64,000 nucleotides of DNA, taken from Solibacillus sp. R5-41. Its GTDB lineage: Bacteria > Bacillota > Bacilli > Bacillales_A > Planococcaceae. The DNA is taken from NCBI RefSeq assembly GCF_002736105.1, contig NZ_CP024123.1:1976001-2040000 (forward strand), written 5' to 3'. Below the pieces are notes generated by a model that saw only the letters and a list, made by a program, of their open reading frames with translations, had not been told where the DNA came from and did not search any database. Positions 11,125-29,407 of this stretch are shown piece by piece (the stretch's first letter is position 1; each line of letters begins with the position of its first letter). The position numbers were made by a program, and so were the translations under genes.

Positions 11125-12248
11125 ATGGAACAAACTATTACAAATTCAAAAAGGACAATCATTGTAGCAATTGTTTTATCCGCACCGTTTGTTTCGATTT
11201 TGAATCAAACATTACTCATGATTGCGATGCCTCCAATTATGGCTGATTTTAAAAAAAGCAAGTGCCGCACAATGGCTAACCACGATTTATTTATTGACGA
11301 ACGGGATATTAATTCCTATTACTGCGTATTTGATTGGGCGCTTTTCAAATAGGGTATTGTTATTAGCTGCGTTAAGTTTGTTTACGCTTGGTACAATCAT
11401 CGGGGCATTTGCACCAAGCTATCCTGTTTTACTCGGAGCACGTGTTATTCAAGCAGCTGGAGCAGGAATCATTATGCCTAATGCAAACAATTATTTTAAC
11501 ACTTTATCCAAAAGAAAAACGCGGTTCTGTAATGGGCATTGCAGGTCTTGTAACCGGCTTCGCACCAGCAGTTGGTCCAACATTGGCTGGCTGGTTGCTC
11601 ACTTACTTTACGTGGCGTCATTTATTTTACACAATATTGCCTGTAGCGCTTGTCGCTATGCTACTTGTTTTCGCATTTATGATAAATGTTGCAAAGAGAC
11701 AAGAAAGACAATTTGATATGCTTACAATTATTTATTCAACATTTGGCTGGGGAGGCTTATTATATGGATTTAGTATGGTAGGTTCAGCTGGATTTACATC
11801 TTGGTATGTCCTGATATCATTAGCGGTTGGTATCGTTTCGTTATTCGTATTTATTCGTCATCAATTCAAGATGCCAACGCCGATTTTAGAATTCCGTGTG
11901 TTCCAATCAAAACTATTTACAATATCAACACTGTTATCTGTGTTAGTGTACGCACTCATGATTGGCACACAAATTTTACTTACGTTTTATGTACAAAATG
12001 TGCGTGAGCTTACGGCGTTAGAAACGGGAATCATTCTGTTAACAGTACATTACGTATGGTCGGTCGGTGGTGCAATCGTCACAGCACTACTTGTAACGGC
12101 GATGTCGGGTACAATGAGTTGTTTAGATGACTATTCAGCGGATGCAATGCTTATAGGGATTCGCATTGCCTTTATCATTGCGACGTTGTTAAGTATTTCT
12201 GGATTAGCACTTTCTATCATGTTAAAGGAACGTAAGGGCAGTTCATAA
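11125..12248 (+). pseudogene. DHA2-type MFS multidrug efflux transporter, frameshifted and internally deleted
   Basis: Three frames together read as an EmrB/QacA-like pump: ILNQTLLMIAMPPIMADF, then AQWLTTIYLLTNGILIPITAYL, then LTLYPKEKRGSVMGIAGLVTGFAPAVGP. The first shift lies at an A7 run (11251-11257), the second at about 11478-11481 where one base is missing before ATGCAAACA. In the last third about 100 residues are missing: after TALETGIILL (about 12040) the sequence jumps to SVGGAIVTALLVT and the C-terminus. The A7 shift alone could be reversible, but the other lesions are not. Decay is shared with the TetR remnant upstream. Confidence 0.85.
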
Positions 12249-13090: not shown

Positions 13091-14338
13091 ATGGAAAATT
13101 TAGTTAAAGTTGTTCTATTTTGTTATACATTTACAATACCGCTATTTTTTATAGCAACAGAAACTGCACATGGCGCTTATTATGTTGCACCGAATGGTAG
13201 TGACGAATCAGAAGGTACGATAGATTCACCTTGGCAATCCATTCAACACGCTGTAAATCAGGTGGAGTCGGGTGATGTTATCAATGTTCGAGGCGGTATT
13301 TACAAAGAAATGGTCGTAATCTCAGAAAAACAGGCAGTAGACGACCAATGGATTACAATCCAAAATTATCCCTATGAAAAACCGATAATTGATGCAGAAG
13401 GTATAGAAATTACGTCATCAAATCGTGCAGGTATTGAAATTATAAACTCTAAAGGGATTCGAATTAAGGGCTTAGAAATACGTAATATGAAAGCTGATTC
13501 CCGAAAGTCTTATCCTGCTGGTATTTTAGTACGAGGAAGTAATAAAAATATTGAAATAGTAGAAAATGACATTCATCACATTGCCAACTACTCAAGCAAT
13601 GGGAACGCACATGGAATTCTTGTATATGGGGATAATACTCAGCCGATTCAAAATATTAAAATTTCGAAAAATCGCTTGCATGATTTAACGTTAGGTAGCA
13701 GTGAATCCTTAACGTTAAGTGGCAATGTTGAACACTTCACGATCGACGGGAATATTGTTTCACGCAACAATAATATTGGTATTGATGTAGCGGGTCGTTA
13801 CGGTGCTTGTAGAAGTGATGGGTGCACGGATTATGCTCGAGATGGTGTTGTTTCAAATAATATCGTTTCCTATATTTCTTCTGGTGACAATCCTGCTTAT
13901 GAAGGGGATAAATCCGCAGCAGGTATATATGTCGATGGCGCACAAAACGTCGTAGTGAAAAACAATTATGTCGGTAAAAGTGACTACGGAATTTCGGTAT
14001 CAAGTGAACAAGAGGGCTTTTCCGCCAAAAATATTACGATAAAAGATAACTTTATTGCAAAGAATACAAAGGCTGGTTTGGTCATAGGCGGTTCGGGTGA
14101 TGATAACGGTGGCGTTGAGAATAGCTCCATTACAAATAATTTGTTTTCGTTTAACGATCGTTCTAAAGAAGGATTTAGGGAAATTACGATTCAGCATCAT
14201 ACGCGCGGTAATGAATTTTCAAACAATTTTTATTTTATTTGCGGCTCAAAAGAGTACGTCAATATTTCGAAAAAAGTAATTGCTGATAATCGTTTCATAG
14301 ATGAATCCGTATATCCACGGGCTATGTGTAAAAAGTAA
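13091..14338 (+). CDS. Secreted right-handed beta-helix protein of the Pel operon
   Basis: A signal peptide (residues 1-29, hydrophobic core LFCYTFTIPLFFIAT) ends near AHGA. YYVAPNGSDESEGTIDSPWQSIQHAVNQVESGDVI... is the DUF1565-type entry of pectate-lyase-like parallel beta-helices, and the rest shows NN-I, N-I-I and G-I-V rungs throughout. Such proteins are polysaccharide lyases or epimerases. The operon's deacetylase lacks the glycoside hydrolase domain found in Pseudomonas PelA, so this protein may trim the polymer; that is inference. ATG 13091 follows GAAGGGTG by 11 nt; TTG 13088 is an alternative. The next gene starts 16 nt downstream. Confidence 0.75.
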   Translation: MENLVKVVLFCYTFTIPLFFIATETAHGAYYVAPNGSDESEGTIDSPWQSIQHAVNQVESGDVINVRGGIYKEMVVISEKQAVDDQWITIQNYPYEKPIIDAEGIEITSSNRAGIEIINSKGIRIKGLEIRNMKADSRKSYPAGILVRGSNKNIEIVENDIHHIANYSSNGNAHGILVYGDNTQPIQNIKISKNRLHDLTLGSSESLTLSGNVEHFTIDGNIVSRNNNIGIDVAGRYGACRSDGCTDYARDGVVSNNIVSYISSGDNPAYEGDKSAAGIYVDGAQNVVVKNNYVGKSDYGISVSSEQEGFSAKNITIKDNFIAKNTKAGLVIGGSGDDNGGVENSSITNNLFSFNDRSKEGFREITIQHHTRGNEFSNNFYFICGSKEYVNISKKVIADNRFIDESVYPRAMCKK

Positions 14339-14354
14339 GAAAGAGAGGGTTCTT

Positions 14355-16523
14355 ATGAAGGTATTAATAACTGGTGGCTATGGTTTTATCGGTTCACATG
14401 TAGCGGACAGATTTTATAAGGAAGGTTACGAAGTGCATATTATTGATAACCTCGTAACGGGGAAAGCCGAAAATATTCCATTTAAACATAAATTTTATCA
14501 TCTTTCTATAGATGATCCAAAATGTCGTGATGTATTTGCGGATTATGACTTCGATATTGTCGTTCACCTAGCTGCCCAAGCAAGTGTTGCGACATCGATG
14601 CATAATCCAACCTATGATGCACAGAGCAATGTAGTTGGCCTCGTTCAAATGCTAAAATTTGCGACGGAATATAAGGTAAAGAAATTCATCTTTGCTTCTT
14701 CGGCAGCGGTTTATGGTGAGCAGTCACAACTCCCTATAACAGAGGACATGAACACAGACCCGATTTCACCTTATGGCATAAGTAAGCTTTTAGGGGAAAA
14801 ATATTGCAGTAATTGGGCAGCAAGTCAAGGATTGTCGTCCATTTGTTTCCGTTTTTCGAATGTGTATGGACCACGCCAAACGCATGAAGGTGAAGGAGGT
14901 GTCGTTTCCATATTTTTGAATAACCTATTAACGAATAACAAGCTCACTATTCATGGGGACGGCAACCAAACGAGGGATTTTATTTATGTAGAAGATGTAG
15001 CATTTGCGATTTACCGTGCCTCACAAAGTACGCTTACAGGTATTTATAATTTGTCAACGAATACAGAGGCAAGTGTAATTGATCTTATTCACCATTATGA
15101 AAGTTTCCATGGAGCTATTGAAACGGCTCAAGTGGCGTCACGTGAGGGTGATATACAGCGCTCAATTTTAAATAATACCCGCATCATTCAAGATTTGGAC
15201 TGGGTCCCGATGTATTCGCTTGAAGAAGGGCTTCAAAAAACATATGAGTGGGGTACATTTCTTAAACCATCGGAACAAGTGGTTGTCAAAGAAAAGAAAG
15301 TAGTTCCTAATTGGTATAAGATTCTCAAGCCATATTTGGAAAATGCCGTATTATTCTTCATTTTAAGTGCGTTTGTTTTGAGCGTGGATATTCCTATTTT
15401 CTCAGTTTTTGAGGTTGGGATTTTCTATATTATTACGGTAGGTGCGATTTATGGTAATAAACAAGCGTTCTTTGCTGTTTGTTTATCCATTAGCTTGTTG
15501 CTTATTGATTACTTCCGTCAAGGTCGAGAAATCGTTTCGTTGCTGTATGATACGACGTTCTTTTTCCAAATCTCCATCTTTTTATTCATTGGTTTAGTTG
15601 TTGGTTACTCTGTACAACGGAAAAATATTAAAATAACGGAACAACAAGAAAAGCTTAATGATCTTCAAACGCGCTATGACTTTTTAGAAATGATTCATGA
15701 AGAACTGCGCGATGTAAAAGATGAGCTGCAATTGCGCGTCTTAAATAACGAAGATAGCTTCGGAAAAATTTATTCAATTACGAAAGAGCTGAATGAGGTC
15801 GAACCCGAAAAGATTTTTACGCGTACGATAGAGGTTGTACAAAAGACTATGCGATGTGAAAATGTCTCTATTTATTTATTAAATGTGGACAAAACGTACC
15901 TTCGACTCGTGGCAAGTTCTAATTTGTTAGATGGAAAACCTCATATGAGCTCATTAAAAGTAGCGGATACGAATTATATCCAACAAATTATTAGCACTAA
16001 TGCAATTTTTGCAAATCGAAATTTACTTTCAAATGTGCCGGTAATGGCTGCACCAATTTTCCACGATAATAAAATTAAAGCGGTGCTCATGATTGATAAT
16101 TTACCATTCTCTAGCTTTTCGAACTATCATGAAAACCTATTCAAGGTTATTGCAGGATTAATCGAAACGTCATTAAGCCGCGCCTTTGAGTATATTCAAT
16201 TTACTGAAGAGAGTCGTTATATTGGTCAATCTATTATCTTACAACCAGATGTATTCCAGGAAATATTGAGTAGCAAAATACTCGCTAAAGAAAAATACAA
16301 TATGCCATTTACACTATTAAAAATCCAAGTTGATGCTAGTGTATCACAGCAAGTTGCGGAAAAAGCGAACCAATTATTAAGGGAAACGGATTATATCAGT
16401 TATTTCGAAGACACACTTTATATTTTACTTTCAAATACAACACAAGAAGATATTCCGTTTATTTTAAAGCGTTTTAACAATGTAGGAATTGAAACTGAAG
16501 TTCATGATGGGGTGCTCTTATGA
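14355..16523 (+). CDS. pelD: UDP-sugar 4-epimerase (PelX/GalE-like) fused to PelD c-di-GMP receptor
   Basis: Residues 1-310 form an extended SDR epimerase: GGYGFIGSH binds NAD, SSAAVY holds the catalytic Ser region, and YGISK supplies the Tyr-Lys pair. This would make UDP-GalNAc/Gal precursors. Residues 325-420 hold about four membrane helices, then a coiled coil (ITEQQEKLNDLQTRYDFLE), a GAF domain (about 475-620) and a degenerate GGDEF domain. In that last domain the active site is lost (FEDTL) but the inhibitory-site motif RETD remains (about residue 676), as in c-di-GMP-binding PelD. The start at ATG 14355 has GAGAGGG before it. The gene overlaps pelE by 4 nt (ATGA). Confidence 0.85.
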   Translation: MKVLITGGYGFIGSHVADRFYKEGYEVHIIDNLVTGKAENIPFKHKFYHLSIDDPKCRDVFADYDFDIVVHLAAQASVATSMHNPTYDAQSNVVGLVQMLKFATEYKVKKFIFASSAAVYGEQSQLPITEDMNTDPISPYGISKLLGEKYCSNWAASQGLSSICFRFSNVYGPRQTHEGEGGVVSIFLNNLLTNNKLTIHGDGNQTRDFIYVEDVAFAIYRASQSTLTGIYNLSTNTEASVIDLIHHYESFHGAIETAQVASREGDIQRSILNNTRIIQDLDWVPMYSLEEGLQKTYEWGTFLKPSEQVVVKEKKVVPNWYKILKPYLENAVLFFILSAFVLSVDIPIFSVFEVGIFYIITVGAIYGNKQAFFAVCLSISLLLIDYFRQGREIVSLLYDTTFFFQISIFLFIGLVVGYSVQRKNIKITEQQEKLNDLQTRYDFLEMIHEELRDVKDELQLRVLNNEDSFGKIYSITKELNEVEPEKIFTRTIEVVQKTMRCENVSIYLLNVDKTYLRLVASSNLLDGKPHMSSLKVADTNYIQQIISTNAIFANRNLLSNVPVMAAPIFHDNKIKAVLMIDNLPFSSFSNYHENLFKVIAGLIETSLSRAFEYIQFTEESRYIGQSIILQPDVFQEILSSKILAKEKYNMPFTLLKIQVDASVSQQVAEKANQLLRETDYISYFEDTLYILLSNTTQEDIPFILKRFNNVGIETEVHDGVLL

Positions 16524-17452
16524 CCAATATGACCATAATGTTTATTATTTTCCTCTATATTGTCATTTCCGCCTTTGTGTTATGGTTCTTTTCACTCGGT
16601 AATTTGCAGGATTGGGTATTTAGATGTACACTTGTCCTTTTTTTACCGGTTATTGGTTGGTTTATTCCGAGTCTTTGGCCAAAAAAACTTCTTAGAAATG
16701 AAGGCGAACAATTCGAAGCATATATGAATGCCCAAACCGATGATATCGCCATAGAGTTACGTTCCTCAAAATTGACCATCGAAAAAGATCGTGAATTAGC
16801 GGTTGTTTCGATTGAAGAGGCTCTAATTATTAGTGATTTTACGACTCGTCGTCGCGTCATGTTGGACCTATTAAAACAAGATGCTATGAAGTATTTAGAT
16901 ATTTTACAAACAGCGGTTACGAATGATGATACTGAAACGTCTCACTATGCCGTAACTGCAGTAATAGAAGTAAAACGCGAACTATCACTGTTATTGCAAA
17001 AATTATCGGTGGAATTTAGTCAAAACCCACAGGACCAGCATGTGGCATTAACATATGTTCAAGTAATCAGAGAATACTTACAAAGTGGTTTCTTGGATAA
17101 GCAATCCACAAAAAATTATCGTATGACTTATATTCAAGTCATACAGTCAATCATTGAAAATAATAAGGCAACGGAAGCGTTATTTAACGAAAAAATAGAT
17201 ATGGAATTGACACTTGGCGAGCTACAGGCTGCTGAGCAAACGGCGCTTTTATTTAAAGAGCACTATCCACTTTCTGAAAAGCCATATTTACAATTGTTAG
17301 CAATCTATTGTGAACTAAAATCAGCTTCTAAATTTAGAAGCGTATTAAATAATTTGAAAAATGCACCCATTACATTAACAAATGAAGCGTTGGTAACGGT
17401 GCGCTATTGGTCGACTGGGGTGAATATTACAGATGAAATGGCTATGGACTAA
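16520..17452 (+). CDS. pelE: PelE-like membrane protein with helical repeats
   Basis: Two N-terminal membrane helices (about residues 4-24 and 30-52) are followed by a cytoplasmic all-helical region with TPR-like pairs (for example LGELQAAEQTALLFKEHYPLSEKPYLQLL), the known PelE layout. PelE partners with PelD and PelG in the membrane polymerisation complex. The gene overlaps its upstream neighbour by 4 nt and the deacetylase gene by 20 nt, so translation of the whole set is coupled. Identification relies on position and topology more than on sequence motifs. Confidence 0.75.
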   Translation: MTNMTIMFIIFLYIVISAFVLWFFSLGNLQDWVFRCTLVLFLPVIGWFIPSLWPKKLLRNEGEQFEAYMNAQTDDIAIELRSSKLTIEKDRELAVVSIEEALIISDFTTRRRVMLDLLKQDAMKYLDILQTAVTNDDTETSHYAVTAVIEVKRELSLLLQKLSVEFSQNPQDQHVALTYVQVIREYLQSGFLDKQSTKNYRMTYIQVIQSIIENNKATEALFNEKIDMELTLGELQAAEQTALLFKEHYPLSEKPYLQLLAIYCELKSASKFRSVLNNLKNAPITLTNEALVTVRYWSTGVNITDEMAMD

Positions 17453-19253
17453 TCAAAAGGTTATCTTTATTGCCGTATTGCTTTTTTTATGTGGGATTAT
17501 TTTGCAAATAACAAGAACTCAAATGGTATTAAAAATGGTAGATAATGAAGACATTTTGGAAATGAAGGAATTAGTAGTTTCGGCTAATATGAATAAAGAG
17601 CAAACGAGTGATATGAACAATCCATCGTATTGTATTGTATATGATGAAACATCCGTCGCTATTAAAAATAATGCAGAAAAGGCCCTTGAATATATGCAAA
17701 AAAGCACGCGGGCTTACGATGTAGCAAAAGGTCAGGTAGATTATGATCGTTGTCCTACTATTTTGTTAAGTACTCCTTATTTAAAGGATCTCGGGACAGT
17801 AGAGGATATTGAAAACTATGTATCAGCTGGCGGACAGCTCTTTTTAATGAATGTACTCGAAATGGATGCACATTTCGATATTTTGTATCGTAAATTGGGC
17901 ATATTAGATTTTGATGATTTCGTTATGACAAATGGTCTGCATATGGTATCGAATCTTCTTATTGGTACAACTGGGGAAACATATTTAGAAGAATCATTAA
18001 ATGATGTCAGTTTAGGGGTTGCGTTAACTAGTGAGGCGACCATTTTTATGGAAAGTACAACGAAAAATCCATTGCTATGGAAAGCGGAATACGGAGAAGG
18101 GACATTCATGGTATTTAACGGCGGTTTATTATCTGAAAAATCTTCTCGTGGATTGATTACGGGCGCGGTTAGTTTAATGGAACCAGACTATGTTTATCCT
18201 ATATTTAATACAAAAGTCTTTTTCATAGATGACTTCCCATCCCCTATAGCAAAAGAGCGAAATGATCTGATTTATAAAGAATACAAGAAAAGTCTTGCGT
18301 CCTTCTATCAATCGGTTTGGTGGCCAAATATGTTGAAATCAGCAGCAAATGAAGATATTCGATATACCGGTGCCATCATTGAGTCTTATTTAGATAATGT
18401 AACACCACCATTCGATAATGTAGAGGACAAGGAGTATGTGTATTTAATTTCCTTTGGTCGAGTATTGATTCAAAGTGGTGGGGAAATAGGCTTCCATGGA
18501 TATAATCACCAATCTCTTACGATGGATCAAAATATTGCTTCTTCGTTTGGTTATAATGCATGGACAAGTAGCGAGGATATGGAGAAATCAATTCGCGAGT
18601 TACAAAGCTATACTAAACAAGCCTTCCCATCTTATAAAGTAACGACCTATGTTCCGCCTTCAAATGTGTTGTCAGAAGTAGGGCGCCAAGCTTTAAAAAA
18701 TAGCTGGCCTGAATTAACGACCATTTCTTCCTTGTATTTAGAGGATCTTACCAATAGATCTTACGTTCAAGAGTTCGAAGTTGCAGAAGACGGTATTATT
18801 GAAATGCCGCGTATTTCTTCCGGCTATGTACGCAATGATTCGGATGATTGGGCCATTGCCAATACGTTAACGGGAATTGGTGTATTTTCTCACTTTATTC
18901 ACCCGGATGATATTATTAGTACGGACCGATCCGGAGGTAGTTGGAATGAAATGTATAAAGAATTCGATGCATTTATGAAAGATGTTCACGAAACCTATCC
19001 TTGGCTACGTGCAATGAAGGCATCGGAAGCTGCGATGGGCATTGCTTCTACTTTGCAAACGACGAGTACAATAGAAAAAAGTAATAATGTCGTTAAAGGG
19101 AACATTGAAAACTATTTGGATGAACAACATTTTATTTTACGAACTGATAAAAAAATTGGAAGGCTAGAAAATTGTGAGGTTACTAAAATTGACGACGGTA
19201 CTTATTTAATCAAGGCATTAGCAGCTCAATTTGAAGTGACATTAAAGGAGTAA
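17433..19253 (+). CDS. pelA: PelA-type polysaccharide deacetylase (DUF2194), membrane-anchored
   Basis: One N-terminal membrane helix (about residues 8-28) anchors an extracellular protein of 606 residues. The first 250 residues resemble a Rossmann-like accessory domain (DRCPTILLSTPYL, GGQLFLMNVLE). The deacetylase part has the Asp pair in FFIDDFPSP (about 263) and the metal-binding H-x3-H in GEIGFHGYNHQ (about 354), then YVPPSN. There is no N-terminal glycoside hydrolase domain, as in the Gram-positive PelADA form. It would partly de-N-acetylate the GalNAc-rich polymer, giving it positive charge. Confidence 0.85.
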   Translation: MKWLWTNQKVIFIAVLLFLCGIILQITRTQMVLKMVDNEDILEMKELVVSANMNKEQTSDMNNPSYCIVYDETSVAIKNNAEKALEYMQKSTRAYDVAKGQVDYDRCPTILLSTPYLKDLGTVEDIENYVSAGGQLFLMNVLEMDAHFDILYRKLGILDFDDFVMTNGLHMVSNLLIGTTGETYLEESLNDVSLGVALTSEATIFMESTTKNPLLWKAEYGEGTFMVFNGGLLSEKSSRGLITGAVSLMEPDYVYPIFNTKVFFIDDFPSPIAKERNDLIYKEYKKSLASFYQSVWWPNMLKSAANEDIRYTGAIIESYLDNVTPPFDNVEDKEYVYLISFGRVLIQSGGEIGFHGYNHQSLTMDQNIASSFGYNAWTSSEDMEKSIRELQSYTKQAFPSYKVTTYVPPSNVLSEVGRQALKNSWPELTTISSLYLEDLTNRSYVQEFEVAEDGIIEMPRISSGYVRNDSDDWAIANTLTGIGVFSHFIHPDDIISTDRSGGSWNEMYKEFDAFMKDVHETYPWLRAMKASEAAMGIASTLQTTSTIEKSNNVVKGNIENYLDEQHFILRTDKKIGRLENCEVTKIDDGTYLIKALAAQFEVTLKE

Positions 19254-19259
19254 ATGCAT

Positions 19260-20678
19260 ATGAGAATTTGTTTAATCGCAGAAGGCTCTTACCCTTATGT
19301 AACGGGTGGCGTTTCTAGCTGGATTCATAGTTTGATGAATGCTATGCCAGAACATGAATTCATCATTTATGCTATTGCTGCTGACCGTAAGCAGCAAGGG
19401 CAATTTAAATATACACTACCCCCAAATTTAATTGAAGTGCACGAATTTTTTTTAGACGCGCATTTAAGTGAAGAAGCAAAGTGGGGGAAACGCTATCATT
19501 TAAATGATGTTCAGAGAAACAGTTTAATTTCATTAGTAAGTGGTTCTAATAATGTGGACTGGGAAGCATTATTTTTTCTTATTAGAAGTGATAATTTTAC
19601 TAATGTTGGGGAATTTTTATCGAGCAAGGACTATTATGAATTAGTAGAACATTTAGCAAAAACGAAGTATACGCATGTCCCATTTACAGAGCTATTTTGG
19701 ACAGTAGGCTCGATGATTTTACCTTTATTCATGTTAATGCGCGATGATTTACCAAAAGCTGATATTTATCATACCGTTTCCACGGGCTACGCTGGAGTAG
19801 TTGGTGCCTTAGCGAAAGTTATTTACAATAAGCCACTCATCTTAACTGAACATGGTATCTATTCGCGAGAACGGGAAGAAGAAATTATTAAAGCCAATTG
19901 GGTTAAGGGTTATTTCAAAGATCTATGGATTAATTACTTTTACACATTATCTAATTCTATATATTCATTAGCAGACGAAATTATTACTTTATTCGGACGG
20001 AATAAGGAGATTCAAATTGAACTCGGTTGTGAACCAGAGCGCATACGAATCATACCGAATGGAATTGATATTAATGATTACAATCAAGTTGTTCGGACGG
20101 TCCAGGACAACACAATACGTATTGGTGCAATTGTGCGAATTGTTCCGATTAAGGATATTAAAATGATGATCCAAGCTTTTTCATTAGTTGAAAAACAATT
20201 ATCAAATGTTGAATTGTTTATTATGGGACCTGCTGAAGAAAACGAGGAATACTATGAGGAATGTATGCATCTCGTAGAACTACTAAACATACAAAAAATT
20301 ACATTTACAGGAATGGTCAATATTAAAGAGCATATAGGCAACCTTGATTTTCTTTTACTGTCAAGTATTAGTGAAGGACAACCTTTAGCCATTTTAGAAG
20401 GCTTTGCTTGTAGTAAGCCTTTTATTTCAACTAATGTTGGGAGCTGTCGAGAATTAATTGAAGGCGACTCAAATGATTCTTTCGGTCCAGCAGGATTTAT
20501 CGTACCTGTGATGCACTATGAAGAGATGGCGAATTTCATAATGAAGCTCTGTTTAGATGAACCGCTACGCCTCGAGATGGGGAGAAATGGTTTTAACCGT
20601 GTTGCTAGTAATTACACACGCCGAGCATTTATTACGAGTTACAAAGAAATTTATAAAGAGTTAGGGACGGTGATATAA
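19260..20678 (+). CDS. pelF: PelF glycosyltransferase (GT4)
   Basis: The 472-residue cytosolic protein has the PelF start MRICLIAEGSYPYVTGGVSSW, the Rossmann-type donor site IRIIPNGIDINDYN, GAIVRIVPIKDIKMMIQAF and the GT4 E-x7-E motif in SEGQPLAILEGFACSKP (about residue 368). PelF uses UDP-GalNAc as donor and works with PelG. ATG 19260 is preferred over 19254 because AAGGAG at 19245-19250 is then 9 nt away. The stop codon abuts the PelG ATG. Confidence 0.92.
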   Translation: MRICLIAEGSYPYVTGGVSSWIHSLMNAMPEHEFIIYAIAADRKQQGQFKYTLPPNLIEVHEFFLDAHLSEEAKWGKRYHLNDVQRNSLISLVSGSNNVDWEALFFLIRSDNFTNVGEFLSSKDYYELVEHLAKTKYTHVPFTELFWTVGSMILPLFMLMRDDLPKADIYHTVSTGYAGVVGALAKVIYNKPLILTEHGIYSREREEEIIKANWVKGYFKDLWINYFYTLSNSIYSLADEIITLFGRNKEIQIELGCEPERIRIIPNGIDINDYNQVVRTVQDNTIRIGAIVRIVPIKDIKMMIQAFSLVEKQLSNVELFIMGPAEENEEYYEECMHLVELLNIQKITFTGMVNIKEHIGNLDFLLLSSISEGQPLAILEGFACSKPFISTNVGSCRELIEGDSNDSFGPAGFIVPVMHYEEMANFIMKLCLDEPLRLEMGRNGFNRVASNYTRRAFITSYKEIYKELGTVI

Positions 20679-23600
20679 ATGGCTGGAATCGGTTTTGAAC
20701 TACGAAAGTTGTATAGACAACAGGGGCTAGTTCAAAATATTAAGGCGTATAGCTATTCAACGATGACGACAGTCGGTCCTATGATTCTCTGTTTAATACT
20801 TGTATTCGCCCAGCAATTAATGATGCGTGAAAATAATAGTTCCTTCCTACAAAATGAATTATTTATAGCGACAATCGCTTATAGCTTTGTGTTTTCGATC
20901 ATCGTTACTTCTGGTTTGTCGATGCTCGTAACAAGATTCATCGCGGATAAAATATATGAACGCAAATACGAGCAAATTATTACAGCATATTATGGTAGTT
21001 TAGTTGTAATTGTACCGATTGGTGCCATTATTGCTGCCTTGTTTTTATGGGGCGTTAATGAGCATATTGTCTATAAAATTGTAGCGTATATTTATTTTAT
21101 TGAACTTATTGTCATTTGGATGCAAAATGTTTTCTTATCTGCATTAAAGGATTATAAGCGCATCTTCAGAGGGTTTGCAATTGCAATGATTCTTTCCGTC
21201 GTGACGAGCTATCTGTTGTTTAATTTTACGTCATGGGATCCTGTTGTTATTGCACTGCTTGGCATGAATATCGGTTTTGCAAGTATTATTATTTTGTCGG
21301 CCTTCCATTTTGAACATGTTTTTCCACGCAATGAACAACGTGATTATTTTCAATTTTTGCGGACTTTAAAAACATATCCTGGAGCTATGATTACAGGGGT
21401 ATTCATTTATTCTGGTGTGTATATTCACAATATTGTTTATTGGTTATTTGCAGACAATAACACACAAGTTTCAGATCAGTTTTTACTTATGCCGCTCTAT
21501 GATGTATCCGTTTTCTATGCGTATTTATCAGTTTTGCCCTCCCTAATATTCTTTGTTGTAATAATAGAAACTGATTTTTATGAAAAGTTTTTAAATTACT
21601 ATAAAAATATTCTTGATGGGGGAACATATGAGAGTATACAGCAAGCTAAACAGCGCATGCAAAAAGTGATTGTTCATAAAACAGGTTTTTTAGCAGAAAT
21701 TCAATTGCTCTTTACTACATTATCAATCGCGCTCGGCATCTTATTTCTGCCGAAAATTGGATTCTCTATGGAACAATTAGATTTATTTATTATTTTATGT
21801 ATTGCGTACTTTTTCTTTATAATGATGTTTTTATTACTTCATATTCTTATGTACTTCGACGATCGAAAAGGTATATTAGCAATCAGTGCGACCTTTATTG
21901 TTTTGAACGCTATTTTAACATATATCACAATGGGATTAAACTTGCATGGTATGGGTATGTTTATGGCTTCGTTTATCGGGCTGTGTCTCACATTTTTCCG
22001 CTTGCTTTACATAGCAGAAAATATTGATTACTATACCTTCTGTCCACAGCCTTTAATGACGATCGGATCTAAAATGAAATTGGGTGAAACTTTGAAAAAA
22101 AATTCTTCAGCACTAACATTACTTTTATTACTGACATTAACTTTAGCTGGTTGTGTTGAAAAAACAGAAACGGATGAGACGTTAAAGGATCCAGGGCAGG
22201 TAACGGCACCCTTGACGAACAGCATTCAAATTGACGATAAAAGACTTTACGAACGAGATCAAGATGACTCAATCAAAACACTATATGTAACGGTTTTACC
22301 AAATGAAAACAATCCTGAACTTGATTGGTACGGGTTAAATCGAATTTCAGAACGATATAGCGAAGAAAAATTAGATATTATCGTATCAGAAGGTGAAACA
22401 AATGGTGCTGGGCCAAAAGCCGGCATGTTTGGGGCAAATGAAACAAAAGCTAATGGTAAAATTAGCATCCGAGGAAACTCAGCGCGTAAACAACCACAAA
22501 AATCATACAAAATTAAATTGATGGACAGCGCGGGTACTTGGAATGATCAGAGAACAATTAATTTAAATAAACATGTTTCAGATGGAAGTAGATTATTAAA
22601 TAAATTAAGCTTCGATTTAATGGAACCAATCCCGAATATTTCAAGTTTACGCACACAATTCGTTCATCTTTATGTGAAAGATACAACTGCTGGGTCAACG
22701 AGCTATGAGGATTATGGTTTGTATACACATATTGAACAACCAAACAAACAGTTTTTACGTAACCATCTTTTTGATCCAAATGGCTATCTGTATAAAGTAA
22801 CATTATTCGAATTTAACCGATATCCAGATCAAATACGCGCGCATACAGATGAAAAATATGATAAAAAAGCATTTGAATCCGTTTTAGAAATTAAAGGGCG
22901 GGAAGAGCATGATAAGTTAATTACGATGCTGGATGATGTAAATAATTACAGTATACCGATTGACGAAGTAATAGAACGTCATTTTGATGAAGAAAACATC
23001 CTTACGTGGGCAGCTATTAACATCTTAATGGACAATATGGATACAGATGCCAATAACTTCTTCATCTATTCACCTTTAAATTTAGACACATGGCTCATCT
23101 TACCTTGGGATTATGATGATGGGTGGGATGCAGGACGTAGCCAAGATTTCTTGAAGGAATATCAAGCAGGTATAAGCAATTTCTGGGGAAATCGTTTATT
23201 TAATCGTTATTTCCGAGTACAAGAAAACGTAGATAAATTAACAGCCAAATTAGAAGAATTAAACGCAACGTATATTAATGAGGCAACTGTAAAAAAACAA
23301 TTGGATTTATACGTACCTTTAGTAAAACCATATGTCCAACGCTTCCCAGACAATCAATATTTACCGATCGTCGGTAAAAACTATGATCAAATTTTAGGAA
23401 GTATTATTGATACACCTAAAAATTCTTTAGAACGGTACTATGAGGATCTCGAAAAACCAAAACCATTCTTTATGTCACAAGAGATTCCAGTAGAAGACAA
23501 TCAACATGTCTTTAGGTGGGAAGTATCATTTGATTTACAAGGGGACGATCTTTATTATGATGTGGCGATTGCACGAGATCCTGAAATGCAGCAAGTGCTC

Positions 23601-23780
23601 TATTCAGAAAAGGGCTTACGTATGAATGAATATCGAACACCAAAACTAGAAAATGGTGTTTATTATTGGAAAGTCACAGTGACAGACTCACAGGGAAATA
23701 CACAAAGTTCCTTCGAGCTGTATGACGATGAAGAAACAAACATTTATCATTTTGGTGTTTTACGATTTGAGGTGGAGTAA
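20679..23780 (+). CDS. pelG: PelG membrane transporter fused to a CotH-type kinase domain
   Basis: Residues 1-460 are PelG: the diagnostic start MAGIGFELRKLY and about twelve membrane helices of the MOP flippase type, for export of the polymer. Without a stop the frame runs on: MKLGETLKKN, a hydrophobic run and LAGC at residues 489-492, which is a complete lipoprotein-like signal inside the protein. A CotH kinase domain follows (about 510-860) with RGNSARKQPQKSYKI, YTHIEQ (about 680), NNFFIY (about 790) and LPWDYDDGWD (about 808). A fibronectin-III-like tail (about 935-1030, ENGVYYWKVTVTDSQG) ends it. An internal ATG exists at 22074 but has no convincing ribosome binding site. Confidence 0.88.
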   Translation: MAGIGFELRKLYRQQGLVQNIKAYSYSTMTTVGPMILCLILVFAQQLMMRENNSSFLQNELFIATIAYSFVFSIIVTSGLSMLVTRFIADKIYERKYEQIITAYYGSLVVIVPIGAIIAALFLWGVNEHIVYKIVAYIYFIELIVIWMQNVFLSALKDYKRIFRGFAIAMILSVVTSYLLFNFTSWDPVVIALLGMNIGFASIIILSAFHFEHVFPRNEQRDYFQFLRTLKTYPGAMITGVFIYSGVYIHNIVYWLFADNNTQVSDQFLLMPLYDVSVFYAYLSVLPSLIFFVVIIETDFYEKFLNYYKNILDGGTYESIQQAKQRMQKVIVHKTGFLAEIQLLFTTLSIALGILFLPKIGFSMEQLDLFIILCIAYFFFIMMFLLLHILMYFDDRKGILAISATFIVLNAILTYITMGLNLHGMGMFMASFIGLCLTFFRLLYIAENIDYYTFCPQPLMTIGSKMKLGETLKKNSSALTLLLLLTLTLAGCVEKTETDETLKDPGQVTAPLTNSIQIDDKRLYERDQDDSIKTLYVTVLPNENNPELDWYGLNRISERYSEEKLDIIVSEGETNGAGPKAGMFGANETKANGKISIRGNSARKQPQKSYKIKLMDSAGTWNDQRTINLNKHVSDGSRLLNKLSFDLMEPIPNISSLRTQFVHLYVKDTTAGSTSYEDYGLYTHIEQPNKQFLRNHLFDPNGYLYKVTLFEFNRYPDQIRAHTDEKYDKKAFESVLEIKGREEHDKLITMLDDVNNYSIPIDEVIERHFDEENILTWAAINILMDNMDTDANNFFIYSPLNLDTWLILPWDYDDGWDAGRSQDFLKEYQAGISNFWGNRLFNRYFRVQENVDKLTAKLEELNATYINEATVKKQLDLYVPLVKPYVQRFPDNQYLPIVGKNYDQILGSIIDTPKNSLERYYEDLEKPKPFFMSQEIPVEDNQHVFRWEVSFDLQGDDLYYDVAIARDPEMQQVLYSEKGLRMNEYRTPKLENGVYYWKVTVTDSQGNTQSSFELYDDEETNIYHFGVLRFEVE

Positions 23781-24490
23781 TGGCGATTGAAAATAAAAAT
23801 TTTCGGCACGAACTAAAATATTATATTACGTATTTTGAAATGATTGCGCTCCGAAAAAAGGTTTCTAGCTTTTTATCACTAGATAAGCATGCAACGAGTC
23901 CAGAAGGCTATAATATTCGTAGTTTGTACTTTGATGGGATGCATGATCACAGTATTTACGATAAAAATGATGGGATTTTTGGGCGAGAAAAATATCGAAT
24001 TCGTATTTATAACGAGAATGATGCGATTATCAAATTAGAAAGAAAGAGTAAATACGGTGATTATATTAATAAAGAGGCGGCGCCATTAACTCGGGAGGAC
24101 TATGATGCTATTTTGCGCGGCGAATATGGTTGTTTAAAAGAGCGGACAGAAGCGCTGATTCAGGACTTTTACCGTGCCCTAGAGTTCCGGCAGTTTCAAC
24201 CTCGCGTGATTGTTGATTATACGCGTGAGGCCTATGTTTATGAGCTAGGGAATATCCGTATCACTTTCGATAAAGAATTGCGTGCAGGCAGTAATGGTAT
24301 CGACTTATTTGATAAAAACATTGTGTATCAAGAAATTCTTTATCCAGAACAAGTTATTTTAGAAGTAAAATATGATGATTTCTTACCAGATGTCATTCGA
24401 CAATTATTACAGCCAGAGCGTTTAACTCGATCTGCCATTTCAAAATATGTCCTTTGTCGAGAAAGAACGATTCAATATTTCAAAGTATAA
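23780..24490 (+). CDS. VTC-domain polyphosphate polymerase
   Basis: The 236-residue protein has the basic tunnel motifs of the VTC catalytic domain: NFRHELKYYI, EKYRIRIYN, IKLERKSKYGDYINK, VIVDYTREAYVY, NIRITFDKELR and the last strand VILEVKYDDFLP. These residues bind ATP and growing polyphosphate in yeast Vtc4. The ATG overlaps the stop of the PelG-CotH gene by one base (TAATG), with GAGGTGGAG just before, so it is tightly coupled to it. It lacks its own membrane segment; the DUF4956 protein encoded next is the likely membrane partner. Confidence 0.9.
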   Translation: MAIENKNFRHELKYYITYFEMIALRKKVSSFLSLDKHATSPEGYNIRSLYFDGMHDHSIYDKNDGIFGREKYRIRIYNENDAIIKLERKSKYGDYINKEAAPLTREDYDAILRGEYGCLKERTEALIQDFYRALEFRQFQPRVIVDYTREAYVYELGNIRITFDKELRAGSNGIDLFDKNIVYQEILYPEQVILEVKYDDFLPDVIRQLLQPERLTRSAISKYVLCRERTIQYFKV

Positions 24491-24539
24491 ATGACAGGAT
24501 TCAATTTTTCCACAAAGCAGCTATTAAAGGAGTTTTATA

Positions 24540-25220
24540 ATGAATGATCAATTAAATTTTCAAAATATCATTAAAAAAAGTGTACTCGCGCTCGATTCTT
24601 TTGCTAGTTTTTCTTATATAGAAATTACTCTTGGTTTACTTTGCTCGTTCGGTATCGGGATGTTTATTTACTGGGTGTATAAGCGTTGTTTCCGTGGTGT
24701 TGTCTATAGCTACAACTATAATGTATCATTCGTTTTGATGACGATGATTACGACGCTCATTATTATGACAATCAGCACAAATATCGTCCTATCTCTAGGG
24801 ATGGTTGGTGCACTAAGTATTGTTCGTTTCCGTACAGCTGTGAAGGATCCATTAGATATCGTGTACATGTTTTGGTCGATTGCTGCAGGAATTGCGATCG
24901 GTGCGCAAATGTATCCGTTGGCAATTATGGGCTCGCTTGCATTCGGTGCAACATTAGCCTGGTTATCGAAGAAAAAAGTGCGTGGTGAAACGTATTTATT
25001 AATTCTCCAACATAATGAGGATGCTATGGAAGATGTTCGTAAAACATTGCAAAAATTAAATACGAAGTTAAAATCAAAAACAATCCGCAATGGATTTATT
25101 GAAATGACTGTAGAAATTCGATTAGTAGATGATAATACAGGCTTTATGAATAGATTAAACAGCATTGAAGGCGTGCATTCTTGTTCACTTGTCAACTATA
25201 CAGGGGATTATGCACAATAA
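24540..25220 (+). CDS. DUF4956 membrane protein
   Basis: Four membrane helices (about residues 28-45, 65-90, 100-118 and 122-140) are followed by a cytosolic ferredoxin-like domain of 80 residues. LSLGMVGALSIVRFRTAVKDPLDIVYMFWSIAAGIAIGA is split over the signature of the DUF4956 family, with the conserved VRFRT..K.P.D..Y.FW. Family members are commonly next to VTC polymerases and CotH proteins, so a role in polyphosphate handling or transport is inferred. AAAGGAG precedes the ATG at 24540; the 49-nt gap after the VTC gene holds no terminator. Confidence 0.85.
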   Translation: MNDQLNFQNIIKKSVLALDSFASFSYIEITLGLLCSFGIGMFIYWVYKRCFRGVVYSYNYNVSFVLMTMITTLIIMTISTNIVLSLGMVGALSIVRFRTAVKDPLDIVYMFWSIAAGIAIGAQMYPLAIMGSLAFGATLAWLSKKKVRGETYLLILQHNEDAMEDVRKTLQKLNTKLKSKTIRNGFIEMTVEIRLVDDNTGFMNRLNSIEGVHSCSLVNYTGDYAQ

Positions 25221-25303: not shown

Positions 25304-26404
25304 TTAGCTTTGTTTCGTCTTGATTTTTCTTAATTTAGCGATTAAAAGCAATGTTAATGGCAAAATAATAGAGAAAATACCTATAGCTAGTGGCCAAGTC
25401 TCCTGGTTGTATTTATCGGAATGAATGATATTTGAATGAATAATTTGAGAAAGAGCCACAGCTAGCATTCCAAGTGGTAATATTAACGGTCTAGGATCCT
25501 TTATTTTAAGAATTTGACTTATACCGAATAAAGAAGCGTAAAAATACATAAAAGCTCGTACAAATATTGTGACCATCCACATAAAAGCCATAATAATTTC
25601 AATGCGTTGTAAAAAGTCTCCAATCGAAATTCTTTGTGCTAATGTATAACTTGGAAAAGTTCTTAAAGATGTATTGGTTACGCCCAATACTAATATCGAT
25701 AAAGCGATAAAGGCTGTTACAATTAAACCACCAATTAATGTGCCAATGTAAAAACCCTTTCTACCAGATTGAAGATTATTAATAGCAGAAGGAAAAATCA
25801 TTAATAGAACAATTAATGGAAATGAAAACAAACCCATGAAATGTAAAACACTATATATGAATGGTTGAATGGGTACATCAAAAAACGGCTGCACATTTTT
25901 AATATCAATTTGTGGAGAAACGGAGAACAAAAAAATAATAAATATGAACAAAAAAACTGGAAACAGTATTTCTAAAGTACGAGCAAAAACTTCTATACCT
26001 TGATAGGCCGCATAAAGAATAATAATCATAAAAAGTATAGAAAATACTACTGGCGGAGTTTCGGGCATCACCTCTGTTTGTAGGAAATAACCAATAAAGT
26101 AGATTAACTCTCCTGATGATAAAAGTGTTAACAGCACAAAACTTAGAGAAACTAATTTTCCAACAAAGCTACCTAAAATTTTTTCAGTTGCTTCTACAAA
26201 AGAATGGGTCGCCAATATATTTGAAAAAATGATATATAGCTTTATTAAAAGTAAGCTAAGTAGAGTACCTATTATTCCTACAATCCAAGCATCTTGATGT
26301 ACTTCTAGAGCTAAGCTTGCTGGAATAATTAATATTCCTGTTCCAACTGTATAGAGAATAACAATTATTGTGAATTGTCGTGAGCTTATTAATTGTTTTT
26401 CCAT
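25304..26404 (-). CDS. Spore germination protein, GerAB/GRKB permease-type subunit
   Basis: The 366-residue protein has about ten membrane helices and the amino-acid-permease-like layout of GerAB (start SSRQFTIIVILYTVGTGILIIPASLA). GerAB subunits sit in the inner spore membrane and bind germinants. This is the last gene of a four-gene minus-strand operon in the order A, C, small protein, B. The C-terminus ends in a basic tail (AKLRKIKTKQS). The bidirectional terminator at 25256-25301 follows. The germinant cannot be predicted. Confidence 0.9.
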   Translation of the reverse strand: MEKQLISSRQFTIIVILYTVGTGILIIPASLALEVHQDAWIVGIIGTLLSLLLIKLYIIFSNILATHSFVEATEKILGSFVGKLVSLSFVLLTLLSSGELIYFIGYFLQTEVMPETPPVVFSILFMIIILYAAYQGIEVFARTLEILFPVFLFIFIIFLFSVSPQIDIKNVQPFFDVPIQPFIYSVLHFMGLFSFPLIVLLMIFPSAINNLQSGRKGFYIGTLIGGLIVTAFIALSILVLGVTNTSLRTFPSYTLAQRISIGDFLQRIEIIMAFMWMVTIFVRAFMYFYASLFGISQILKIKDPRPLILPLGMLAVALSQIIHSNIIHSDKYNQETWPLAIGIFSIILPLTLLLIAKLRKIKTKQS

Positions 26405-26414
26405 AATATTCCTC

Positions 26415-26660
26415 TTATGAATTATTTTTATTTAACAATGTATCTTTTAAAAAGTCACTGATTGGTTGAAAAATATACATAATTGGGTCCAATGGGCTGC
26501 TATTAATGGCATTTAAATTTATAGCAATGTTTAATGACGTCCCCATAACTAACAAAATAGAGAATGTCCAAATTAGTTTAGTACTGCCTTTTTTTAATTT
26601 TGGAAGTTCGAAAAAAATAATAGCAATAGATACTATTGATATGCCTAAGGTGATTAACAT
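26415..26660 (-). CDS. Small two-helix membrane protein of the ger operon (D-type subunit)
   Basis: The 81-residue product has two membrane helices (about 2-18 and 28-47) and a short polar tail. Small two-helix D proteins are known within ger operons of Bacillus species and modulate receptor function, so the position between the C and B genes fits that role. The gene lies 8 nt after gerC and 10 nt before gerB. Confidence 0.75.
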   Translation of the reverse strand: MLITLGISIVSIAIIFFELPKLKKGSTKLIWTFSILLVMGTSLNIAINLNAINSSPLDPIMYIFQPISDFLKDTLLNKNNS

Positions 26661-26668
26661 CTCAATAT

Positions 26669-27856
26669 TTACTCCTTTAATTTTGTGTTTTTAATAGTCC
26701 CAAACCCGTGTGTATTGACATTAACCTTAACATTTACTTCTACCTCAGGATAAATCGTTTGCCAGTTGTCACTAATTTTTTTCCATTCTTTCGGGTCTGC
26801 ACGACGAATCGCTTCACCAAAACCAAGTACATCTGCTTGATAATTTTCTTGGAGAATTTCCAGCACGTGAGTAATATTTTTTTTAATGTACTTCTCAGTT
26901 TGATTATTAATCCAATCCATCATTTTTATTTCTGATAAATCAATATCACATTTGACCTCGGCGACATTTTGAACAATATCAATGCTAATATTGATTGTAG
27001 GCTGGCTGTTCTTAATTATCCCTTTCGTTTTCGTTTTAGATTGAGTAATTTCGGTTGTTAACTCGCCACCTGAAGGACAAGAGATAATTTCAATTGTTGA
27101 TTTAATATTATCGTTTAAATAATTAAAACTTTTACTTTCATACTCATCAATATAACCTAATAATTTATCCTCTTTAAAAATTGCGAGGCCAGTAAATTTA
27201 AGAAGTACGGGAGTTTCAACTCTCTCTACATTTGTTTTGTCTATTCCTAAGTTTTTATCCCCATGAACTTCAATGGCTGATATTACAAAAGAGGGGTTCT
27301 TTCCTCCTAAAGCTGACATTAAATCATCAATATCAACTTCCAATGTTGAGCCCCATGCATCTTCCGCACCTTTTAATGAATTTGACATTTTATTGGCAGG
27401 AACTTTTTCAATAGGCGTTAGTACATTTAATACATCTTTTGCAGTGGCTTGTTTAGATATGATGACAGAATAATCGTTCCGTATCTCTTGATCTCTAGCT
27501 AGAAAATCAACGGCATCCCTTAATCCAGTACTTGCCAATTCATCCCCGAAAATAACCATTTGCATATGTGCAAAATACAATTTTCTCGGGGAAGCTGCTA
27601 ATAATTTTCTAATCGCTTCAAATACTGTTTTTCCTTTACCGTGGTAGGTGACCACTGGTGCTTGTCCCTCTCCAGGTTTATTGGAGGAAACTTGTCCTGG
27701 GTTAATTACTTGTACAGAAATGGCGTATTCACCATCTATATAATCAATACCGAGCGCGGCAACAAGAGCTAATTCATTTAATTCACGTTTACTCCAACAA
27801 CCACTTAAAATTAAAAGTAGAGAGATGATTGTTAAAATGAATAGTTTATTTTTCAT
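26669..27856 (-). CDS. Spore germination lipoprotein, GerAC (Ger(x)C) family
   Basis: The 395-residue protein starts with a lipoprotein signal ending in ILSGC (Cys 20), followed by the family hallmark WSKRELNELALVAALGIDY. The family pattern continues with VVTYHGKGKTVFEAIRKL, PRKLYFAHMQMVIFGDELA and a C-terminal region with YQADVLGFGEAIRRADPKEWK, all typical of GerAC. It would be attached to the outer face of the inner spore membrane as the C subunit of the receptor. It sits 27 nt after the A subunit. Confidence 0.92.
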   Translation of the reverse strand: MKNKLFILTIISLLLILSGCWSKRELNELALVAALGIDYIDGEYAISVQVINPGQVSSNKPGEGQAPVVTYHGKGKTVFEAIRKLLAASPRKLYFAHMQMVIFGDELASTGLRDAVDFLARDQEIRNDYSVIISKQATAKDVLNVLTPIEKVPANKMSNSLKGAEDAWGSTLEVDIDDLMSALGGKNPSFVISAIEVHGDKNLGIDKTNVERVETPVLLKFTGLAIFKEDKLLGYIDEYESKSFNYLNDNIKSTIEIISCPSGGELTTEITQSKTKTKGIIKNSQPTINISIDIVQNVAEVKCDIDLSEIKMMDWINNQTEKYIKKNITHVLEILQENYQADVLGFGEAIRRADPKEWKKISDNWQTIYPEVEVNVKVNVNTHGFGTIKNTKLKE

Positions 27857-27883
27857 TGAGTTACCTCATTTATCATTTAATTC

Positions 27884-29407
27884 TCACTTATTTTTACGAC
27901 CTCTCACATTATTAGTTTGACTAATCAATCTAGGACGAGTAAGTAATGAACTACGAGGGAGTATTATTAATGCATCCTTTTGATCTTTAGGAATTAAAGG
28001 TGCAAACGGGCTCATGTATGGGACGCCAAATGAACGTAAACTACATAAATGAATAATTAGTAACATTAGTCCTATAAAGATTCCAAAAAGTCCAAACATA
28101 GCTGCTAAGACCATTAAAGGGAAGCGTAACATACGTATAGAATTAGATAGGCCGTATGCTGGAAAAAGGAAACTACTTATTGCCGTTAGAGCTACAATAA
28201 TAACCATAGCTGCTGAAACAATTCCTGCCTCGACGGCTGCTTGACCAATGATTAATGTTCCTACTATAGAGATTGCGGGTCCAATCATCCTAGGCATCCT
28301 TAAACCTGCTTCCCTTAAAACTTCAAATGCAATTTCCATAATTATTGCCTCAACAAATGCAGGGAATGGAACACCTTCTCTTTGTGCGTATATACTAATG
28401 AGTAAGGGTGTTGGAATCATTTCATGATGAAAAGTCGTTAGAGAAATATAGAGAGCAGGAGCAACTAATGCAAGGCTAATTCCTAAAAATCTAATAAGAC
28501 GAATAAACGAACTGACAAATGCATTTTGAGAATAATCTTCTGCAGATTGCAAAAAAGACGTGAATAATGCAGGTACAATTAACACAAATGGTGTACCATC
28601 TACTAAAATGGCTATTTTTCCTTCAAGTAAGTCTCCAGCAATTACATCTGGGCGTTCTGAATTAAAAACAGTAGGAAATAAGCTGAACTTAGAATCTTGA
28701 ATTAATTGTTCAATATAACCACTCTCTAATATACTATCAATGTCTATTTGATCTAATCTATCAAGTACTTCCTGAATTATTTCTTCATTTGCTATGCCAT
28801 TTATATACATTACAGCTACTTCCGTTTGCGTAACTTTACCAATAACTCTAGATTTTATCCAAAGGTTGGGGCTTTTAATTTTACGTCTAATTAAGGCGGT
28901 ATTGGTTCTTAAAGTTTCCGTAAAGGATTCTCTAGGTCCTCTAATTACAGACTCGGTTGCAGGCTCTGATATGGCTCTGTCTTTGGCATTTTTTGTACTT
29001 GTTGAGATGCCTTTTGAGCTACCATCTAGTAATATTACGGTATCCCCGTTTAAAATTGCGTTAAACAATGATGGGAAATCAACTATATCTTTTATACTCC
29101 CCACAGATAAACACTGAGTTTTTAATCGCAATTCAATATCTTGTAAGGTTGTTTCAGATTGTATCTCAAAATTTTTAATAATATTTTCTAGTATAAAATC
29201 TGTAATCGAAGTATTATCGGCAAGACCATCCGTAAAGATAATAGCTATTGGTATCTCAATAGGTTTTCCAATCATAAATTCACGGATAATAATATCATTA
29301 CTATTACCTAGTGAATCTTTTATGGTTTGTATATTTTTCAGGAGAGATGTAGAAAGAAATTGAGCTGTCGTTTCTTTCGATAGGTTATCATTTTCTGAAA
29401 TATCCAC
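27884..29407 (-). CDS. Spore germination protein, GerAA (GRKA) subunit
   Basis: The 507-residue protein matches GerAA: an N-terminal soluble domain with FMIGKPIEIPIAIIFTDGLAD and LIRRKIKSPNLWIKSRVIGK, then a conserved membrane part starting at LLEGKIAILVDGTPFVLIVPALF and containing RFLGISLALVAPALYISLTTFHHEMIPT. The GTG start has AAAGGAGG 9 nt upstream. As the first gene of the operon its upstream region (29420-29510) should hold a forespore sigma-G promoter; a GAATA...CATAACTA arrangement on the minus strand near 29480-29505 is only a loose match. Confidence 0.92.
   Translation of the reverse strand: MDISENDNLSKETTAQFLSTSLLKNIQTIKDSLGNSNDIIIREFMIGKPIEIPIAIIFTDGLADNTSITDFILENIIKNFEIQSETTLQDIELRLKTQCLSVGSIKDIVDFPSLFNAILNGDTVILLDGSSKGISTSTKNAKDRAISEPATESVIRGPRESFTETLRTNTALIRRKIKSPNLWIKSRVIGKVTQTEVAVMYINGIANEEIIQEVLDRLDQIDIDSILESGYIEQLIQDSKFSLFPTVFNSERPDVIAGDLLEGKIAILVDGTPFVLIVPALFTSFLQSAEDYSQNAFVSSFIRLIRFLGISLALVAPALYISLTTFHHEMIPTPLLISIYAQREGVPFPAFVEAIIMEIAFEVLREAGLRMPRMIGPAISIVGTLIIGQAAVEAGIVSAAMVIIVALTAISSFLFPAYGLSNSIRMLRFPLMVLAAMFGLFGIFIGLMLLIIHLCSLRSFGVPYMSPFAPLIPKDQKDALIILPRSSLLTRPRLISQTNNVRGRKNK

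Follow-up and report, generated by a model that had tools for sequence, protein, structure and literature searches.

Why should a soil bacillus encode its Pel exopolysaccharide exporter and a CotH kinase in one reading frame, with what looks like a lipoprotein signal in the middle? We addressed this question for a Pel cluster of Solibacillus sp. R5-41 (genome size, 4.28 Mb) within a 64,000-nucleotide stretch of the genome, hereafter the window, to which all positions refer. ORF calls combined with Pfam and NCBIfam scans yield eight tightly packed open frames on the + strand at 13091-25220, in the order beta-helix protein, SDR-PelD, PelE, PelA deacetylase, PelF, PelG-CotH fusion, VTC, and DUF4956. 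The features, including those within the fusion, are as follows.

13091-14338, + strand: beta-helix protein with a hydrophobic N terminus, first gene of the cluster (PF13229, E 2.8e-11)
14355-16523, + strand: PelD, with an N-terminal SDR/epimerase domain (PF01370), a GAF domain, and a RETD motif near the C terminus
16520-17452, + strand: PelE, named from position only; conserved between PelD and PelA
17433-19253, + strand: PelA deacetylase-only protein (DUF2194; PF09960, E 9.6e-152)
19254-20678, + strand: PelF glycosyltransferase (NF038011, 383.8 bits against a cut-off of 100)
20679-23780, + strand: PelG-CotH fusion, a single frame of 1033 aa (PF16933 at aa 1-454, PF08757 at aa 595-910)
20679-22043, + strand: PelG half, MOP-type exporter fold (PF16933; AF2 model; Foldseek to MATE, MurJ, and WzxE)
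22053-22154, + strand: internal lipoprotein signal, with a basic part, a hydrophobic helix, and the lipobox LAGC (Cys492 at 22152-22154)
22461-23408, + strand: CotH kinase domain (PF08757; match to 5jd9 by sequence and fold)
23780-24490, + strand: VTC-type polyphosphate polymerase-like protein (PF09359, E 7.3e-38)
24540-25220, + strand: DUF4956 membrane protein with a C-terminal alpha/beta part (PF16316, E 7.7e-11)

PelD (named from its domains and position), the PelA deacetylase, PelF, and PelG stand in the order expected of a Gram-positive pelDEADAFG operon, and CotH, VTC, and DUF4956 follow PelG contiguously as its accessory group. All families named in a preliminary description of this DNA are present on the + strand except PelE, which no Pfam or NCBIfam model matched; the complete Pel set claimed there holds for PelD, PelA, PelF, and PelG, with PelE named only from its conserved location between PelD and PelA. 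The eight-gene list given there is right as to families and packing, but it omitted the beta-helix gene at 13091 and split PelG and CotH, which form one frame of 1033 codons; the fusion, the most unusual part of the cluster, went unnamed. Its coupled junctions are also present: the overlaps of PelD with PelE (4 nt, 16520-16523) and of PelE with PelA (20 nt, 17433-17452), the abutting ends of PelA/PelF (19253/19254) and PelF/PelG (20678/20679), the TAATG between CotH and VTC (23778-23782), and the 49-nt gap from VTC to DUF4956. That gap is probably not the only one, however. The beta-helix gene stops at 14338, and since an SD-like gagaggg precedes the ATG at 14355, pelD probably starts there after a 16-nt gap; a purely mechanical call puts the ORF start at 14301, inside the beta-helix gene.

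A promoter scan did no better than shuffled sequences (58 versus a mean of 59.3), and it listed no terminator-like site on the + strand after 25220. No riboswitch upstream of the cluster reached the Rfam gathering threshold, the window's only Rfam match being a SAM riboswitch on the − strand (RF00162, 61899-62007, 96.7 bits). By eye, two overlapping frames at 11222-12248 resemble pieces of one MFS transporter, probably frameshifted, and the genes at 25304-29407 on the − strand, convergent with the Pel cluster, resemble what we take to be a spore germination receptor operon.

Operons of this type are already known. The composition had seemed undescribed, yet the gene set appears both in Whitfield 2020 (PMC7112168) and in a study of S. 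intermedius (mBio 2025, PMC12345266). As given in the accessible text of the former, CotH, a poly-phosphate polymerase, DUF4956, and DUF4832 follow pelDEADAFG in streptococci and clostridia, with a variant in bifidobacteria, and the accessory genes correlate with an SDR domain on PelD; Brevibacillus is named there once, for SDR-PelD and not for CotH, and the words "fusion" and "Paenibacillus" are absent from those parts of the main text. The Solibacillus locus shares the genes after pelDEADAFG and the SDR domain on PelD but differs in that PelG and CotH are one protein, a beta-helix gene lies upstream, and the Pfam scan of the eight ORFs found no DUF4832 gene. In S. intermedius (pel locus SIR_1591-1594), according to the sections available, the CotH, VTC, and DUF4956-type genes were each deleted: loss of CotH lowered Pel, loss of the DUF4956-type gene raised it, and either loss reduced aggregation in artificial sputum to less than half, while the VTC mutant still aggregates and has Pel, with no effect of VTC loss reported in those sections; the polymer is described as GalNAc-rich (PMC12345266). 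Both loci pair Pel with CotH (1594), a VTC (1593), and an MgtC/ACT membrane protein (1592), CotH being secreted there and predicted to be exported here, but in S. intermedius CotH is separate from PelG and PelD is without GGDEF, unlike the arrangement here.

PelD of the window differs from that of the streptococci described in PMC7112168 in keeping the RxxD motif, which theirs lost with the GGDEF domain. The motif is present in 62 of 65 PelD C termini (duplicates between two locus sets included), so c-di-GMP control is probably kept. For YxxxK, the first match in the window and two relatives is a non-catalytic site, with YGISK coming further along in the window.

The PelG-CotH fusion extends well beyond this genome. 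In a family sample, PelG matched in 20 of 151 genomes (17 over the cut-off), and 14 of those 17, the window's own included, carry fused frames of 1030 to 1069 codons; in all 14 fetched family loci a single frame encodes both PelG and CotH, and VTC and DUF4956 lie behind it. PelG and CotH are separate in the three remaining genomes, all of one genus. Fusions were present in 45 of 48 named loci, which is not a frequency because the query was made of fusions; nearer to a frequency is the class-wide sample of 398 genomes, where 7 of 53 full-length PelG hits lie in fused frames and six of those loci were checked. The genera involved are Solibacillus, Rummeliibacillus, Psychrobacillus, Sporosarcina, Ureibacillus, Brevibacillus, Paenibacillus, Cohnella, and Saccharibacillus. 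Of the 45 named fused loci, 40 have the order fusion-VTC-DUF4956, which is more than chance because VTC and DUF4956 lay outside the query, and in the other five (L143, L145, L146, L156, L164) VTC or DUF4956 went unlabelled, probably where a contig ended or the ORF caller settled on another frame. The order CotH-VTC-DUF4956 next to Pel is thus conserved across genera, rather than peculiar to one strain as in the refuting case set out in the preliminary description. In a tree, none of 7 unfused PelG sequences falls inside the group of 52 fused PelG, with low support (0.388) at the joining node. The literature searched, in the parts available, held no description of a PelG-CotH fusion with an internal lipoprotein signal, and the fusion is apparently undescribed.

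Several candidates fell outside these counts. An 818-codon PelG frame (G795), considered as a further fusion, proved to be unfused and lengthened by a spurious N-terminal extension; the locus L173 is broken and does not count as a fusion; and partial or weak pieces (two each in G281:C2 and G309:C24, and G351:C1:1853946) were left out of the fetched loci. Eighteen plasmid records match the fusion query, none over 80% of it, and the 10 matches listed among these 18 all cover the PelG part only. Copy number of CotH also varies: L042 and L043, two relatives in the window's genus, carry a second CotH between fusion and VTC, as a separate lipoprotein gene directly after the fusion, and L085 and L183 have two tandem CotH genes behind an unfused PelG.

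The beta-helix protein that opens the cluster is probably secreted, and a profile HMM built on it finds matches in 24 of the 45 named fused loci. Paenibacillus, Brevibacillus, Cohnella, and Ureibacillus have longer versions (678 to 966 aa), while L041/L130 carry the gene downstream of DUF4956. Our guess is that this protein takes the place of the hydrolase that cuts Pel in other pel loci.

An AF2 model of the fusion (mean pLDDT, 80.6; pTM, 0.51) has 12 long helices, a helix at 470-490 flanked by disorder, and then CotH, and a Foldseek search with it returned CotH 5jd9 at the top, followed by MATE, MurJ, and WzxE structures. The linker, which runs from the end of PelG near aa 455 to the start of CotH near aa 520, evolves fast, and at aa 459-492 of the single frame it holds a basic part, a hydrophobic part, and a lipobox with its Cys, the elements of a lipoprotein signal. 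Such signals are N-terminal by definition, and this one lies far from the N terminus of its precursor. Among the first 14 fusions, C492 is the sole invariant column between Q457 and D520, and all 52 distinct fusions have a C there (L127 and L045 missed the text anchor and L139 hit an earlier Cys pair, but in the alignment each of the three shows the C, and its lipobox is visible); L179 and L180, from the class-wide sample and outside the set of 52, carry the lipobox as well. Parsimony on a FastTree tree of the 52 fusions gives 0 changes at the Cys, 5 at the −3 position, and 9 at the −1 position, against medians of 25 in the linker, 25 in the hydrophobic part, 30.5 after the Cys, 7 in PelG, and 8 in CotH. 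At least four K/R precede the hydrophobic part in all 49 correctly placed rows, and the 14 residues before the Cys bear no charge in 46 of these and one charge in 3. In 51 of the 52 fusions there is no further Cys downstream of C492, and the exported part therefore has no disulfide partner for it.

We compared these sites with conventional ones using a PWM trained on 77 N-terminal lipoprotein sites that occur in the same loci. Median scores were 5.8 for the internal sites, 5.9 for the N-terminal lipoprotein sites, and −5.4 for 550 control internal cysteines after hydrophobic stretches; 52 of 52 internal sites and 69 of 550 controls scored above the 5th percentile of real sites, where the training sites had been filtered on −1 and −3 and hence are lipobox-like by choice, the 52 being unfiltered. 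Several of the top-scoring controls resemble lipoproteins with a misplaced start. The host genome has both the Lgt and LspA families. Strict retention of the Cys argues for lipidation and release by LspA, and a lipobox in mid-protein suggests one protein that the cell cuts into two; the literature searched yielded no report of LspA acting on an internal site. A precedent for the general scheme is FbcH of Bradyrhizobium, a cytochrome b/c1 polyprotein cut at an internal signal by signal peptidase. Like PelG-CotH, it combines a polytopic membrane protein, an internal signal, and an exported domain, so that one gene gives two proteins, but it is without a lipobox, whereas the PelG-CotH signal is of the signal peptidase II type.

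The CotH half resembles the Bacillus cereus CotH kinase (PDB 5jd9/5jda) in kinase fold and catalytic-type residues, matching 5jd9 with E 1.4e-7 by sequence and 7.5e-12 by fold; E686, D788, N793, D811, and D813 are common to both and invariant in the 52 fusions. Kinase activity is predicted for this CotH atypical kinase fold. In contrast to the B. cereus protein, the domain is preceded by an internal lipobox signal and joined to an exporter. Six of the 14 family genomes with the fusion, the window's included, have no CotH match besides it. Among unfused Pel-linked CotHs, six open with a lipobox signal (L085, L168, L172, L175, L182, L183) and four have a hydrophobic N terminus without a lipobox (L039, L040, L046, L111). 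CotHs of non-Pel loci show a lipobox-like motif within the first 70 residues in 2 of 37 cases and, by a crude test, a hydrophobic N-terminal stretch in 37 of 37. Because of those four Pel-linked proteins and the low non-Pel count, lipidation is no general need of CotH. That CotH phosphorylates an exported partner, as suggested earlier, is plausible because CotH follows an export signal, although the target itself we only infer.

The VTC protein keeps the charged residues of VTC polyphosphate polymerase: at least 97% conservation across 134 sequences (61 Pel-linked and 73 other VTCs) holds for E11, K13, K71, R73, R75, E87, K89, K98, R149, R160, D164, E195, K197, S221, and K222, and the charged residues among them presumably line the polymerase tunnel. 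Polyphosphate synthesis and transport are predicted functions of this protein. It would not be the host's sole polyphosphate maker, as the genome also has a PPK1 family match. Neither VTC nor the DUF4956 profile found a convincing match among PDB sequences, and the AF2 model of DUF4956 is weak (mean pLDDT, 67.8).

The CotH-VTC-DUF4956 set is not confined to Pel. In a phylum sample, VTC occurs in 69 of 398 genomes and PelG in 17 (13 over the cut-off). From 78 fetched VTC loci, 3 in which the caller gave no VTC ORF were left out, and of the resulting 75, 69 have a same-strand DUF4956 nearby and 40 a CotH within 6 kb. PelG is absent from 38 of those 40, so the trio is not a Pel-only set; the order in the 38 is VTC-DUF4956-CotH (33 loci), CotH-DUF4956-VTC (3), or one of two other orders (once each), and CotH-VTC-DUF4956 occurs only in the 2 loci with PelG. 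The authors of the S. intermedius study, in the text available, report this synteny as not found outside Pel (PMC12345266), a statement that fits only the exact order because the 38 loci hold the trio in other orders. In C. perfringens NELoc-2, as described in the source consulted, VTC genes, small "tubulin" genes, CotH, and a putative chitin synthase lie together, and the "tubulin" genes are probably DUF4956. Of the 35 VTC loci without CotH, 10 were tested, and in 9 of these the next gene is Cthe_2159 (PF14262), with a lipobox in the first 30 residues of 7 of the 9 by eye. In five loci outside Pel (L052, L053, L054, L058, L061), VTC-DUF4956 is flanked by a divergent 225-aa gene resembling a response regulator, beyond which lies a 410- to 454-aa gene, perhaps a sensor kinase.

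On balance, we think it probable from sequence evidence that this is a Gram-positive pelDEADAFG operon of the CotH/VTC/DUF4956 type whose PelG-CotH polyprotein is lipidated by Lgt and cut by LspA at the internal lipobox. We infer topology, lipidation, cutting, kinase target, and the roles of VTC and DUF4956 as follows. PelG would insert as a 12-helix exporter with its C terminus inside, and the former lipoprotein signal peptide would cross the membrane as a 13th helix, bringing the lipobox Cys to the outer face. Lgt would lipidate this Cys and LspA would cut before it, giving PelG and a membrane-anchored CotH lipoprotein in equal number and in the same place. CotH might then phosphorylate the Pel chain as it emerges, or a partner located at the point of exit, with VTC (inside) and DUF4956 (in the membrane) supplying or controlling the phosphate side.

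It is unlikely, although worth weighing, that the fusion stays uncut, with the 13th helix holding CotH to PelG and the Cys either lipidated as an extra anchor only or a relic. A hydrophobic N-terminal segment without a lipobox does serve CotH in the four Pel-linked loci named above, and AF2 predicts the helix at 470-490; if such a helix sufficed, however, a relic Cys would drift, and it shows no change where the linker median is 25, while the −1 and −3 positions are slow too, as in a cleavage site. We consider it very unlikely that CotH is made separately from an internal translation start and that the fusion is only apparent. An in-frame linker start codon with an SD-like motif upstream exists in 3 of the 14 fusions examined (the window, L043, L035), but such starts are not conserved: L045 has no ATG, GTG, or TTG between PelG and the Cys, and L034 and L036 have only a TTG three codons before it. 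Moreover, no stop codon ends PelG, which makes the full-length product unavoidable in any case.

CotH is known from spore coats, and the genes at 25304-29407 resemble spore germination receptor genes, yet we give almost no credence to a spore-coat kinase that happens to adjoin Pel: this CotH has an export signal ahead of it and shares its chain with a membrane exporter, and the gene set also occurs in streptococci (PMC7112168), which are non-spore-formers. The idea offered in the preliminary description, that the cell co-produces cationic Pel and exported polyphosphate in a matrix whose charges balance, has in its favor the retained charged residues of VTC and the co-occurrence of VTC with the fusion, but it now appears highly improbable. 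VTC-DUF4956 is mostly found without PelG, the host has PPK1, the S. intermedius VTC mutant keeps Pel and aggregates, and the GalNAc-rich polymer there argues against a strong positive charge (PMC12345266).

A wider role for polyphosphate, in which the lipobox-matured PelG-CotH stands at the Pel exit and the VTC-DUF4956 pair both produces polyphosphate and exports it as a phosphate source outside the cell, seems to us unlikely as a whole. Its polyprotein half has strong sequence evidence; the phosphate relay from VTC/DUF4956 to CotH is speculation from gene pairings. Polyphosphate outside the cell, where ATP is scarce, would feed CotH (in Pel and many other loci) or Cthe_2159 surface proteins, and CotH would use it to phosphorylate a sugar polymer.

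The fusion ties CotH physically to the Pel exporter and makes the role of Pel-linked CotH directly testable in soil bacilli. If the lipobox is cut, Lgt and LspA would accept a signal far from the N terminus, and the fusion would be a simple genetic route by which one chain yields an exporter and a surface lipoprotein in equal number.
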